Assembly (NCBI GenBank): GCA_030765065.1
Contig: CM060983.1
Location: 45,754,067-45,818,066, forward strand
Length of the DNA: 64,000 nucleotides
DNA from: Deroplatys truncata
Lineage: Eukaryota; Arthropoda; Insecta; Mantodea; Mantidae
Direction: 5' to 3'
Numbering within the stretch: position 1 is the first letter of the stretch; every line of letters starts with the position of its first letter. The position numbers and the translations under genes were made by a program. Positions 227-16,663 of this stretch are shown piece after piece. The notes below the pieces were generated by a model. It did not search any database, was not told where the DNA came from, and worked only from the letters and a program-made list of their open reading frames with translations.

Positions 227-232
227 GACCCC
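227..232. repeat. Target-site duplication GACCCC (left)
   Basis: GACCCC lies directly outside the first paired base of the inverted repeat (A at 233). The same six bases in the same orientation follow the last paired base at 16657. A 6-bp duplication is the size made by Polinton/Maverick integrases of the retroviral type. Confidence 0.8.
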
Positions 233-259
233 AGTAGGATATATAGGAGAGAGCTGGCA

Positions 260-1150
260 CAGTTTTTTGCGTTTATATGGGAAAGGATAGGGAAAACGAA
301 GGTAGATGCTAGGTTGAGAGAGTCTTCAAGGAGGAAAATGCGTTTATATGGGAGAGATAGGGAATACCAGGGCTGATGCTAGGCTAATCAGATGCTAAAG
401 GAGGGAGGGATATGCTTTATATGAGACAGATAGGGAATACGTGGAGAGGTGCTAGGCTAGACAGAGGCTGAGTAATGTATGGTTTATATGAGCGGTATAG
501 GAAAACGATGAGAGGTGTTAGACTAGACAAGGCTTGAAAAGTAGTGCATGGTTTATATGAGAGATATAGGAAAACGAGGAAAGGTGTTAGGCTAGGCAGA
601 AGTCGAGGAGTAGAGTAAGGTTTATATGAGAAGTATAGGAAAACGAGGAGAGGTATTAGGTTAGGAGAATTGAGTTTGTGTTTATAAGGAGAGACGAGAA
701 AACGGAGAGAGATCCTATGCTAGGATAGACAGGTGTTAAAGTTAGGTTAGATAGGAAACCAAGGAGTGATACTCAGCTAGAGGGGGGGTAGGAGGGAATG
801 AGCTTTTGAGAGGTAGGGGATACGGGGAGTGGTGTTAGACTAGACAGGGCTTGAAACGTAGGGCATGGTTTATATGTATGAGAAGTATAGGAACAGGAAG
901 AGGGGTGCTAGGCTAGACAGAGGTTGAGGAGTAGAGTATAGTTTATATGAGAGGTATAGGAAAACGAGGAGAGGAGTTAGACTAGACAGAGGTCGAGGAG
1001 CAGAGTATGGTTTATGTGAGAGTCATAGGTAAACGAGAGAGGCGTTAGGCTAGACAGAGCTAGAGGAGTAGAGTATGGTTTATACGAGAGGTATAGGAAC
1101 AGGAGGAGAGGTGTTAGGCTAGACAGGTAGTGTAGCAGTAGGAATATGGA
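260..1150 (+). repeat. Subterminal degenerate tandem array, unit about 60 bp (left)
   Basis: A purine-rich unit of roughly 60 bp is repeated about 14 times. Its core motifs are GTTTATATGAGAG, TATAGGAAAACGAGGAG and TTAGGCTAGACAGAG. Units drift by substitutions and small indels. The array is mirrored in the right arm. There is no credible coding sequence. Subterminal tandem repeats could serve as binding sites for a transposition or replication protein, which is inference. Confidence 0.85.
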
Positions 1151-1269
1151 CTTATATACAGGAGAGATAGGGAATAGGAGGTGCTAGACTTGAAAGCGAC
1201 TTTAGAAGTGAACATAGTGGAAAACTGTTTCATGTCAATGTTCTAGACATGCCCATCACGTAACCTATT

Positions 1270-1563
1270 CAGGGAAAAGGTGACTCGTTCAGGGGAAAAA
1301 GGTGACTGCTCAGGGAAAAAGGAGACCCACAAAGGGAAAAAGTTGACTAGCAAAGGGAAAAACGTAACCAGCAAAGGGAAAAAGGCGACCAGCAAAGGGA
1401 AAAATGTGACCAGCAAAGGGAAAAAGGCGACATGCAACGGGAAAAAGGTGACCAGTAAAGGGGAAAATGTCACCAGCAAAGGGAAAAAGGTGACCACCAA
1501 AGGGAAAAAGGTGAGCCATAAAGGGAAAAAGGTGACCTGCAACGGGAAAAGCTAACCCACTAA
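1270..1563 (+). repeat. 21-bp minisatellite (left arm)
   Basis: About 14 tandem copies of a 21-bp unit with core AAGGGAAAAAGGTGACCAGC. The unit is a whole number of codons, so the array stays open in three frames: + strand 1280-1555 reading TSKGKKV repeats, and - strand 1243-1542 and 1310-1597. The open frames follow from the period and do not show that a protein is made. Confidence 0.9.
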
Positions 1564-1574
1564 CACTAACAGGT

Positions 1575-2860
1575 AAGTAATTCAGGTAGTATTGCAAGAG
1601 GCTGACTGGATCATAGCAGTGTATGATTTCACAGGTAATTCAGCTAGTATCGTATGCATTTAGGCTAATTCGTATAGTAACACAGGATAGATTCCAGATG
1701 CTAACTGCATCATGGCTCTGCATGATTTCACAGATAATTCAGCTAGTATCGTAGGTGTTTAGAGTAATTAAGCAAGTATCACAGGAGGCTAGATTCCAGG
1801 GTTGGGTATAGCATAGTTTCGTATTTCAGAGGGTATCGTAGGTATTTAGGATAATTCAAGTAACATAGGTGTTTAGAGTAATTAAGCAAGCATTACAGGA
1901 GGGTAGGTTCCAGGGGTTGGTTATAACCTAGCTTCGTATTTCACAGATAGTTCAGGTAATATCGTAAGTATTTGAGGTAATCGACAGAGCTTCACAGATA
2001 TTATTGATAATTTCGATCAGAGATTTGTATCACAGCTATTTAAGGTAAATGCAGATGATTCAGGTTGTATCAATGGTATTTGAGTCATTTTAACAGGTAA
2101 TTCTGATAGTATCACAGGTGCTCGTGCTAATTTAGAGCAGGAATTCGTATCAGAGCTAGTTAAGGTAATTTCACATGATTCGGGTAGTATCACAGGTATT
2201 TAAATCATTTTCATAGCCAATTCAGCTAGTATCGTGAGCATTTAAGCTAATTCAGCTAGTATCACAGGAGGCTAGATTCCAGAGGCTAACTGCATCATAG
2301 CTATGCATGATTTCACAGCTAATTCAGCTAGTATCGTAGGTATTTAGGCTAATTCAGGTAGTATCACAGGAGGCTAGATTCCAGGGTTGGGTATAGCATA
2401 GTTTCATATTTCAAGGTAATTCAGAGGGTATCGTAGGTATTTAGGATAATTCAAGTAACATAGATGCTTAGAGTAATTAAGCAAGCATTACAGGAGGGTA
2501 GGTTCCAGGGGTTGGTTATAGCCTAGTTTCGTATTTTACAGATAGTTCAGGTAATATCATAAGTATTTGGATAATCAGCATAGTTTCACAGATGCTCGTA
2601 ATAATTTCGATCAGAGATTTTGTATCACGGCTATTTAAGGTAAATGCAGCTGATTCAGGTTGTATCAATGGTATTTGAGTCATTTTAATAGACAATTCTG
2701 ATAGTATCACAGGTGCTCGTACTAATTTAGAGCAGGAATTCGTATCTGAGCTATTTAATGTAATTTCACACGATTCGGGTAGTATCACAGGTATTTAAGT
2801 CATTTTAACAGGCAATTCAACTAGTATCACAGGTACTCATGGTAATATAGAGAGTAATTC
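1575..2860 (+). repeat. Degenerate tandem array, unit about 30 bp (left arm)
   Basis: Dispersed-to-tandem copies of a unit like TAATTCAGCTAGTATCGTAG plus GTATTTAGGC, with higher-order blocks containing ACAGGAGGCTAGATTCCAGG. The 90-codon frame on the - strand at 2516-2788 is only a translation of these repeats. The array is mirrored at about 14030-15315. Confidence 0.8.
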
Positions 2861-15314: not shown

Positions 15315-15325
15315 CCTGTTAGTGT

Positions 15326-15619
15326 TAGTGGGTTAGCTTTTCCCGTTGCAGGTCACCTTTTTCCCTTTATGGCTCACCTTTTTCCCTTTGGTGGTCACCT
15401 TTTTCCCTTTGCTGGTGACATTTTCCCCTTTACTGGTCACCTTTTTCCCGTTGCATGTCGCCTTTTTCCCTTTGCTGGTCACATTTTTCCCTTTGCTGGT
15501 CGCCTTTTTCCCTTTGCTGGTTACGTTTTTCCCTTTGCTAGTCAACTTTTTCCCTTTGTGGGTCTCCTTTTTCCCTGAGCAGTCACCTTTTTCCCCTGAA
15601 CGAGTCACCTTTTCCCTGA
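15326..15619 (-). repeat. 21-bp minisatellite (right arm)
   Basis: Inverted copy of 1270-1563, also about 14 units. The 1:1 conservation of unit order between arms argues for recent copying or continuing gene conversion, since minisatellites normally diverge fast in copy number. Confidence 0.9.
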
Positions 15620-15739
15620 ATAGGTTACGTGATGGGCATGTCTAGAACATTGACATGAAACAGTTTTCCACTATGTTCACTTCTAAAGTCGCTTTCAAGT
15701 CTAGCACCTCCTATTCCCTATCTCTCCTGTATATAAGTC

Positions 15740-16630
15740 CATATTCCTACTGCTACACTACCTGTCTAGCCTAACACCTCTCCTCCTGTTCCTATACCTC
15801 TCGTATAAACCATACTCTACTCCTCTAGCTCTGTCTAGCCTAACGCCTCTCTCGTTTACCTATGACTCTCACATAAACCATACTCTGCTCCTCGACCTCT
15901 GTCTAGTCTAACTCCTCTCCTCGTTTTCCTATACCTCTCATATAAACTATACTCTACTCCTCAACCTCTGTCTAGCCTAGCACCCCTCTTCCTGTTCCTA
16001 TACTTCTCATACATATAAACCATGCCCTACGTTTCAAGCCCTGTCTAGTCTAACACCACTCCCCGTATCCCCTACCTCTCAAAAGCTCATTCCCTGCTAC
16101 CCCCCCCCTCTAGCTGAGTATCACTCCTTGGTTTCCTATCTAACCTAACTTTAACACCTGTCTATCCTAGCATAGGATCTCTCTCCGTTTTCTCGTCTCT
16201 CCTTATAAACACAAACTCAATTCTCCTAACCTAATACCTCTCCTCGTTTTCCTATACTTCTCATATAAACCTTACTCTACTCCTCGACTTCTGCCTAGCC
16301 TAACACCTTTCCTCGTTTTCCTATATCTCTCATATAAACCATGCACTACTTTTCAAGCCTTGTCTAGTCTAACACCTCTCATCGTTTTCCTATACCGCTC
16401 ATATAAACCATACATTACTCAGCCTCTGTCTAGCCTAGCACCTCTCCACGTATTCCCTATCTGTCTCATATAAAGCATATCCCTCCCTCCTTTAGCATCT
16501 GATTAGCCTAGCATCAGCCCTGGTATTCCCTATCTCTCCCATATAAACGCATTTTCCTCCTTGAAGACTCTCTCAACCTAGCATCTACCTTCGTTTTCCC
16601 TATCCTTTCCCATATAAACGCAAAAAACTG
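15740..16630 (-). repeat. Subterminal degenerate tandem array, unit about 60 bp (right)
   Basis: Inverted copy of 260-1150. Pyrimidine-rich on this strand, with CCTCTCCTCGTTTTCCTATA and CTCTGTCTAGCCTAACACC motifs. Confidence 0.85.
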
Positions 16631-16657
16631 TGCCAGCTCTCTCCTATATATCCTACT

Positions 16658-16663
16658 GACCCC
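16658..16663. repeat. Target-site duplication GACCCC (right)
   Basis: Direct repeat of 227-232, abutting the terminal CT of the element. Confidence 0.8.

Follow-up and report, generated by a model that had tools for sequence, protein, structure and literature searches.

The classification of eukaryotic DNA transposons relies mostly on their transposases. Foldback and Galileo elements have target duplications of 9 bp and 7 bp, respectively, and among linear replicons pGKL1S is a yeast hairpin plasmid and pGKL1D its inverted dimer. For the Mavericks (Polintons) of vertebrates, a total size of 12.7–24.6 kb, terminal repeats of 46–1,447 bp and the ends (AGT)2//(ACT)2 have been described (PMC8097293). 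Polinton-derived PolB and terminal repeats have also been reused outside Polintons, as in the element described here, by the Bidnaviruses; unlike this element, these are ssDNA viruses with a capsid gene (PMC4061559).

We analyzed a stretch of 64,000 nucleotides of Deroplatys truncata (GCA_030765065.1, contig CM060983.1, positions 45,754,067 to 45,818,066), hereafter the window. Positions 233–16657 form an inverted-repeat element of 16,425 bp that ends in AGTAGG//CCTACT and carries one PolB ORF per arm; its features are as follows:

227..232, left target-site duplication GACCCC, 6 bp
233..8039, + strand, left arm, lacking approximately 0.73 kb beside the loop (junction at about 8032/8033)
233..262, + strand, terminus AGTAGGATATATAGG..., an exact 30-mer
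268..1126, + strand, outer left arm, tandem repeats of 69–73 bp
1268..1550, + strand, left arm, 21-bp tandem repeats
1597..2861, + strand, left arm, repeats of about 99–125 bp inside a duplication of about 595 bp
3224..6868, − strand, PolB, left copy, 1214 aa, with 3 aa deleted and two residues substituted at sites that relatives conserve
8033..8846, 814-nt unpaired stretch, comprising the loop and the right-arm inner end that has no partner
8040..8108, usual centre of the family, unpaired loop of about 70 nt (boundaries set by eye)
8109..16657, − strand, right arm with a complete inner end
8277..9138, + strand, arm inner end, tandem units of about 416 bp
10011..13664, + strand, PolB, right copy, 1217 aa, with A726P (P in 0 of 48 relatives at that position)
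14027..16479, − strand, outer-arm tandem repeats, mirrored
16658..16663, right target-site duplication GACCCC, 6 bp

Alignment of the arms (233–8032 against 8847–16657) shows 8 differences, namely 6 substitutions, one 2-nt indel and one 9-nt indel. The 7.8-kb inverted arms described in an earlier interpretation made without database searches (the sequence-only reading) are thus present, as are the GACCCC duplications and the AG/CT ends. Since the duplication begins and ends with bases complementary to each other, a 4-bp reading (ACCC) with CAG//CTG ends would also fit; we take its length as 6 bp because 19 other elements fix that length. No further copies were found within the window (blastn, E 1e-3).

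A genome search for both termini, proposed along with the sequence-only reading, revealed a family. Exact matches to the 30-bp terminus number 197 in the genome of 4.29 Gb, 100 in forward and 97 in reverse orientation, against 0 for a backward-read control. The family size is estimated at approximately 100 copies. Among the matches listed, which cover 100 of the 197 terminus places on eight contigs, there are 47 pairs and 6 singles; 23 of these 47 pairs span 17.0–17.25 kb, with about 17.1 kb being typical, and 16 are shorter than 17.0 kb. Three shorter pairs near 14.8–14.9 kb (14,810, 14,818, and 14,938 bp) might share one deletion. A typical family member of about 17.1 kb is a near-perfect palindrome with arms of about 8.5 kb and a short centre. 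Perfect 6-bp duplications, differing among the elements, flank all 20 distinct elements checked (two sets of 10/10 with one element in both, plus the window). Metagenome contigs L005–L013 were considered as additional palindromes and rejected, as their inverted matches are all short, at 42 nt (L005), 76 and 21 nt (L006) and 188–194 nt (L013).

Palindromes are classic assembly artefacts, produced for instance by a missed adapter or by collapsed inverted reads. Such an origin is scarcely credible here. In the window, the 226 bp to the left of the element are not mirrored on the right and no N is present, which argues against a fold-back artefact. A stronger argument comes from the 47 same-end pairs elsewhere (on eight contigs, among the matches listed), as each of the 19 that were checked proved to have a duplication of its own. 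We therefore rejected this explanation on the unmirrored flanks, on the different 6-bp duplications at 20/20 elements and on a deletion junction private to the window, described below.

The element resembles Polintons in having a PolB of the same family, 6-bp duplications and a size within the 12.7–24.6 kb range, and AGTAGG//CCTACT agrees with (AGT)2//(ACT)2 at 5 of 6 positions (PMC8097293). Unlike them, it carries PolB twice, has yielded no integrase, ATPase or capsid gene, and has arms of 7.8–8.5 kb as compared to terminal repeats of 46–1,447 bp in the vertebrate Mavericks (PMC8097293). Pfam scanning of 10 of the 26 non-PolB ORFs (left half, at least 55 aa) identified no rve integrase, packaging ATPase, capsid protein, transposase or protease; the homology search of the element likewise gave no packaging ATPase or capsid gene, and tblastn with two related integrases gave no match to the element. 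No non-PolB ORF exceeds 154 codons. A Polinton-derived palindrome in which PolB is the only gene found, as previously proposed, is supported by these data together with the multiple copies and their 6-bp duplications.

Two other origins for such an architecture were weighed. Foldback and Galileo also have long inverted arms with internal tandem repeats, and a cut-and-paste foldback transposon of another superfamily might have captured a Polinton polymerase gene. We regard this as very unlikely, since no transposase ORF was seen among the ORFs scanned, and since the AGTAGG//CCTACT ends together with the 6-bp duplications are those of Mavericks; in contrast to Foldback and Galileo, the element has a DNA polymerase gene, no visible transposase of MULE or P type, 6-bp duplications and arms that are matched element by element. 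The Polinton-like size, 6-bp duplication and end motif would also suit a Polinton in which inward growth of the terminal repeats had brought them together, with deletion of the middle genes; the palindrome would then be no more than an end state, and the copies would move as normal non-autonomous Polintons. This is improbable in our view, as the middle genes occur in none of the 10 other copies (compared in two stretches each, with the insert and about 1 kb of the middle of one copy, E9, outside the comparison), PolB is still under selection, and element-by-element matching of arms is unexpected for static inherited repeats. Within that same comparison, no copy has integrase and capsid genes in the place of its second arm, a structure that had been considered evidence against a palindromic family.

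The structure model of the right PolB copy has a pLDDT of 89.7 and its nine best PDB matches are phi29 polymerase. PolB homologs were found in which the active-site motifs are conserved. The window PolB gave no PF03175 match; a PDB sequence search with it, up to E 1, retrieved four zinc-finger chains and one other chain and no polymerase, and a PHROGs search with the window protein identified an endonuclease VII insert only. Based on the phi29-like fold of the model and the conserved active-site motifs, PolB is predicted to be protein-primed. Among 15 PolB sequences C247 and H337 are invariant and D244 and F248 nearly invariant, the pattern that an OTU-like pair would show. N-terminal terminal-protein and vOTU domains are predicted in PolB from motifs and from PMC11071308.

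PolB is under purifying selection across the family, with a pooled pN/pS of 0.21 (45 pairs of 10 elements), a ratio that is noisy for the closest pairs (up to 1.59, for the window element W against E6, with 7 changes). The full 1217-aa ORF is present in 15 of 22 arms, in a count where the left arm of E9, the sequence of which ends before the PolB start, was not scored as broken. The two PolB genes of the window had been called intact; both ORFs are indeed open, but that both work is not assured, as each is changed at conserved positions. In E3, an identical shortened PolB frame is found in both arms, and at least one lineage must therefore have done without its own full-length polymerase when it moved or was equalised.

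We compared the arms in a PolB block of 3,150 nt in nine elements (W and E0–E7; E8 and E9, with rearranged left arms, were left out), which replaced an earlier matrix inflated by misalignment for W, E5, E7, E8, and E9. Within an element the arms differ at 0–4 positions; between elements they differ at 1–79 positions (median 33, 144 comparisons). The within-element differences sum to 14, and when right arms were shuffled among elements the mean was 278 and the minimum 24, with 0 of 20,000 shuffles as low as observed. Across the 101 columns in which the second state occurs in at least two arms (columns with a single-arm state being excluded), both arms are in the same state in 907 of 909 cells. 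Repeat-number variants also occur paired in both arms, as seen in the left/right distances from terminus to PolB stop of E0 (2679/2680), E1 (3039/3039), E2 (2993/2992), E3 (3158/3149), E4 (2994/2995), and E6 (2950/2950). E5 and E7 differ from each other at 1 position, which is no more than the difference between the two arms of either element (1 position each); this pair was counted against element-wise matching. The arms of an element are copied from or matched to each other, a pattern that replication and later conversion would both give.

Y-chromosome palindromes are kept alike by arm-to-arm gene conversion, and the main rival explanation is that the element was inserted as an ordinary duplex with separately inherited arms, which were later equalised in the same manner in each chromosomal palindrome. 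It predicts within-element identity far above that between elements, as found, and long palindromes are able to self-pair. Nevertheless, 5 of 11 elements retain a large lesion that affects one arm or the centre, namely deletions in W, E5, and E8, a deletion across the centre in E7 and the 2.3-kb insertion in E9, even though the remaining arms of W, E5, and E7 are nearly identical; no two of the 11 elements compared have a one-arm lesion in common. Gene conversion also leaves the origin and spread of a PolB-only palindrome unexplained, and we consider it unlikely overall, though a serious contender. Agreement of arms within elements and difference between them supports the hairpin intermediate suggested previously.

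The centres of the family are short, with a loop of 28–96 nt in 17 of 20 fetched centres. The usual centre (about 8040–8108 in the window) occurs in both orientations across copies and folds on its own (z −2.09, with 6 of 200 shuffles equally good). The rest of the 814 nt in the window is right-arm sequence, the partner of which, about 0.73 kb, is absent from the left arm, and the deletion junction has 1 match in the genome. The 814-bp loop of the sequence-only reading therefore stands as an unpaired stretch and not as a design feature of the family, and a working role for it was rejected, as it reflects a private deletion. Several copies have centre variants in common (L074, L078, and L082; L080 and L086). 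The two halves of the loop in centre L085 are exact inverted copies of each other, as a strand end folding back within the loop would produce; gene conversion could also give rise to this loop. E1 has a shifted centre, which is unique and may simply reflect a deletion at the centre with unequal sides, and its use as proof of a new fold-back was withdrawn. The GGTTCGAAT motifs of the centre were considered as possible tRNAs, an idea that was rejected because ARAGORN detected none in the window.

The same genome harbors Polintons in which the integrase and polymerase frames are open. Among the matches listed, a PF03175 polymerase lies at most 10 kb from an integrase at 25 of 134 places, and because integrase and polymerase frames stand side by side at these 25 places, the supply of an integrase in trans, as had been inferred earlier, is plausible. 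Mobilisation in trans is likewise plausible from this co-residence, the 6-bp duplications and the AGT/ACT ends. In L001 and L011, relatives of this PolB are arranged tail to tail with an rve integrase, in line with a Polinton origin; in L010 the relative lies downstream of an integrase on the same strand, and gene order thus varies among the relatives.

Taken together, we favor a Polinton-derived family of snap-back palindromes with a PolB in each arm, multiplied through a hairpin and integrated by an integrase in trans (probability approximately 0.6). Protein-primed polymerases use a jump-back start, and replication by PolB would start at the AGTAGG ends, the partial AGT repeat of which would permit such a start. 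The displaced strand, being self-complementary, would fold into a hairpin of about 8.5 kb, in which repair would remove arm differences; alternatively, its 3′ end may snap back so that one arm is templated by the other. The resulting duplex with two equal ends would be the substrate for the integrase, which the full Polintons of this genome would provide in trans. The family may have originated from the PolB end of a Polinton, if an incomplete strand made there was copied back onto itself. The polymerase and two origins would thereby be retained, and the integrase, protease, ATPase, and capsid genes lost.

Among DNA transposons, the family would then correspond to a copy-back defective genome with its own polymerase retained. 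The copy-back defective genomes of negative-strand RNA viruses are likewise self-complementary with the same start site at both ends, whereas the element is DNA, is integrated and retains a polymerase gene. In pGKL1S and pGKL1D a PolB-type linear replicon is similarly reduced to a hairpin and an inverted dimer, but these are unintegrated cytoplasmic plasmids and not a chromosomal family with target duplications. We give even odds to the fuller proposal of a copy-back transposon, that is, a self-complementary replicon with one polymerase gene and two identical origins, re-matched as a hairpin in every round and parasitic on the integrase of resident Polintons, in which arm divergence dates insertions as it does for LTR pairs. 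Titles and abstract openings among the matches listed in our literature search contain no palindromic Polinton or PolB-only palindromic transposon, and as far as searched this category of mobile DNA is undescribed.

The family in D. truncata is present in multiple copies and maintains a polymerase under selection, while no recombinase of its own is apparent. Should the hairpin reading hold, it would be a chromosomal DNA analogue of copy-back defective genomes and a satellite of Polintons, as well as a natural system that makes and keeps a 17-kb palindrome. Each insertion would carry its own clock, because its arms would start identical, and the handling of long palindromes by the host, for example in deletions such as that in the window element, could be read from dozens of independent copies.

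The palindromic element in the window spans 233-16657 (16,425 bp) and has the termini AGTAGGAT...ATCCTACT. Its arms (233-8032 and 8847-16657) are six substitutions and two indels apart, and tandem repeats (69, 21 and ~120/595 bp) fill the outer ~2.6 kb of each. The flanks are unmirrored and the window contains 0 N. The mirror arms, GACCCC duplications and two PolB ORFs of the sequence-only reading are confirmed:

227-232 and 16658-16663, target-site duplication GACCCC flanking the element
3224-6868, minus strand, PolB ORF of the left arm, 1214 aa, reading from the centre outward
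10011-13664, plus strand, PolB ORF of the right arm, 1217 aa, reading from the centre outward

Elsewhere in the window we observed a Mos1/mariner-type transposase fragment (20748-21131, minus strand; HTH_48 above cut-off), reverse-transcriptase fragments in two frames (32989-33694, plus strand; RVT_1 below cut-off) and a long microsatellite (42151-42770) that translates to (LSIY)n in three minus frames.

In the 4.29-Gb assembly (818 contigs), the first 674 bp gave at least 40 scored places at ~100%. Exact matches to the 30-bp terminus number 100 forward and 97 in reverse, against 0 for the same sequence read backward as control. Among the 100 matches listed, 94 places form 47 plus/minus pairs of 11.2-19.5 kb (23/47 of 17.0-17.25 kb, 16/47 below 17.0 kb), and 6 termini are without a listed partner. 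Duplications were checked for ten pairs at their ends and for ten (E0-E9) read as two stretches each, with one element common to both sets; they are perfect 6-bp duplications in 20/20 distinct elements, including the window copy, which belongs to a family with 197 exact termini in the genome.

By the criterion used, 17/20 fetched centres contain an unpaired axis stretch of 28-96 nt; that of L077 measures 192 nt, and L082 and L090 show no symmetry at the point fetched. The usual loop of the family corresponds approximately to window 8040-8108 and is found in both orientations, and two centre sequences are common to several elements (L074/L078/L082; L080/L086). The 814-nt stretch previously taken as the loop of the window copy does not hold up as such: it arises because the left arm lacks about 0.73 kb beside the loop, and the junction of this deletion has 1 genomic occurrence. 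Other lesions are one-arm deletions in E5 and E8, a deletion spanning the centre in E7 and a ~2.3-kb insertion in E9. The shifted centre of E1, with a single occurrence in the genome, may be a plain central deletion. A copy of 11.2 kb with a ~5.9-kb one-arm deletion (G000:C7:225490984-225502154) and one of 19.5 kb with a ~2.3-kb one-arm insertion (G000:C8:130489496-130508977) are natural cases of palindrome rearrangement. By eye, tRNA B-box-like GGTTCGAAT motifs are repeated in the central 416-bp units (window 7700-9250), where ARAGORN called no tRNA.

The arms agree within one element and differ between elements. Collinear arms differ by 0 (E2, E4), 0.9 (E1, E6), 1.8 (E3) and 3.4 (E0) mismatches per kb, whereas comparisons between these six elements give 7.8-28 per kb. 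In a 3,150-nt PolB block of nine elements (the window copy and E0-E7; the rearranged E8 and E9 were left out), differences number 0-4 within an element versus 1-79 between elements (median 33, 144 comparisons), the distance between E5 and E7 equalling that between the two arms of either. The within-element differences sum to 14; shuffling the right arms among elements gave sums that averaged 278 and never fell below 24 (0/20,000 as low as observed). Over 101 columns with a second state in at least two arms, a count that excludes states present in one arm alone, both arms have the same state in 907/909 cells. Repeat-number variants are likewise paired between arms: a terminus-to-PolB-stop distance near 2,993 is common to six elements, and E0, E1, E3 and E6 each have their own. 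This element-by-element agreement means that the arms get equalised. Gene conversion between arms after insertion could produce the same end state, but large lesions persist in 5/11 elements, which argues somewhat against frequent arm-to-arm conversion. The simplest site of equalisation is a hairpin, in a cycle every step of which we infer: a self-complementary strand, once displaced, would double back along its own length, and in the resulting hairpin arm differences would be repaired, or one arm copied from the other. A strand end snapping back inside the loop would leave an inverted half-copy, as in the L085 loop, one half of which is an inverted copy of the other.

The pooled pN/pS of PolB is 0.21 (45 pairs, ten elements, one full-length ORF each), with single close pairs ranging from 0.06 to 1.59. 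The full 1217-aa ORF is present in 15/22 arms and one further arm is the 1214-aa window copy; the left arm of E9, covered in part, is not scored as broken. E3 has the same shortened frame in both arms, and therefore no full-length copy. The two window genes, earlier described as intact, are both open, but each carries changes at sites conserved in 48 relatives: A726P in the plus copy (P in 0/48), and P568L (P in 46/48), S1027N (N in 0/48) and a 3-aa deletion (gap at 806 or 808 in 0/48) in the minus copy. Judging from these sequences, PolB copies seem to decay once inserted.

Scoring of 7,991 candidates identified 613 relatives of the window PolB at E 1e-3, the four best at 51-56% identity, one of which is annotated (Rhodnius prolixus). 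The protein has weak zinc-finger-like matches at its N-terminus, an endonuclease VII insert over the Pfam cut-off and no PF03175 match in the Pfam scan. Family B exonuclease and polymerase motifs are conserved in a 15-sequence alignment. The predicted structure of residues 61-1217 (pLDDT 89.7, pTM 0.86) best matches phi29 DNA polymerase, to which all nine top PDB chains belong. Polinton polymerases are described as combining a terminal-protein domain at the N-terminus with a vOTU protease and inserted endonucleases (PMC11071308). In the 15-sequence alignment C247 and H337 do not vary and D244 and F248 hardly do, which would be compatible with, but no proof of, a terminal-protein/vOTU layout.

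Among contigs with PolB relatives, L001 (a 17.4-kb viral contig) also encodes an rve integrase and an A32-like ATPase, and L011 an adjoining rve integrase, with integrase and PolB tail to tail in both; in L010 an integrase match is found upstream of PolB, in the same orientation. The window has repeats only at the corresponding place downstream of PolB. Polinton-type PolB is encoded on L005-L012, from bacterial and archaeal metagenome bins, which are therefore probably misbinned eukaryotic or viral DNA. Within the element, tblastn with the L001 and L011 proteins gave, PolB aside, nothing better than E 1, and 0/10 scanned non-PolB frames, drawn from the 26 other stop-to-stop frames of at least 55 codons in the left half of the window copy, had a family hit above cut-off.

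The L011 integrase scored 134 places in the genome of the palindromes, at least 25 of them with a PF03175 polymerase within 10 kb (76 listed polymerase loci compared). Many of the frames are open (polymerase up to 1,281 aa, integrase 352-363 aa); A32-like ATPase genes were placed at 38 sites. Polintons in which both integrase and polymerase can be read through thus share a genome with the palindromes, as candidate helpers. They are of other families and have the two frames close together, for example at C14:17651956-17656481; a further integrase place, outside the 25, combines rve with a chromodomain (L064).

Vertebrate Mavericks have (AGT)2//(ACT)2 ends, lengths of 12.7-24.6 kb and inverted repeats of 46-1,447 bp (PMC8097293). 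The palindrome ends match this terminal motif at 5/6 positions. Because the palindrome has three defining Polinton features (PolB, 6-bp duplications and AGT ends) but, within the scans above, not others (integrase, ATPase and capsid genes, and short terminal repeats), we class it as Polinton-derived, not as a Polinton. Titles and abstract starts in the open literature yielded no comparable element. In its operation the palindrome would resemble a hairpin/inverted-dimer replicon (pGKL1S/pGKL1D) or a copy-back defective genome. The 6-bp duplications point to integrase-type insertion, and purifying selection on PolB, in an element whose two ends are identical, suggests a replicon.
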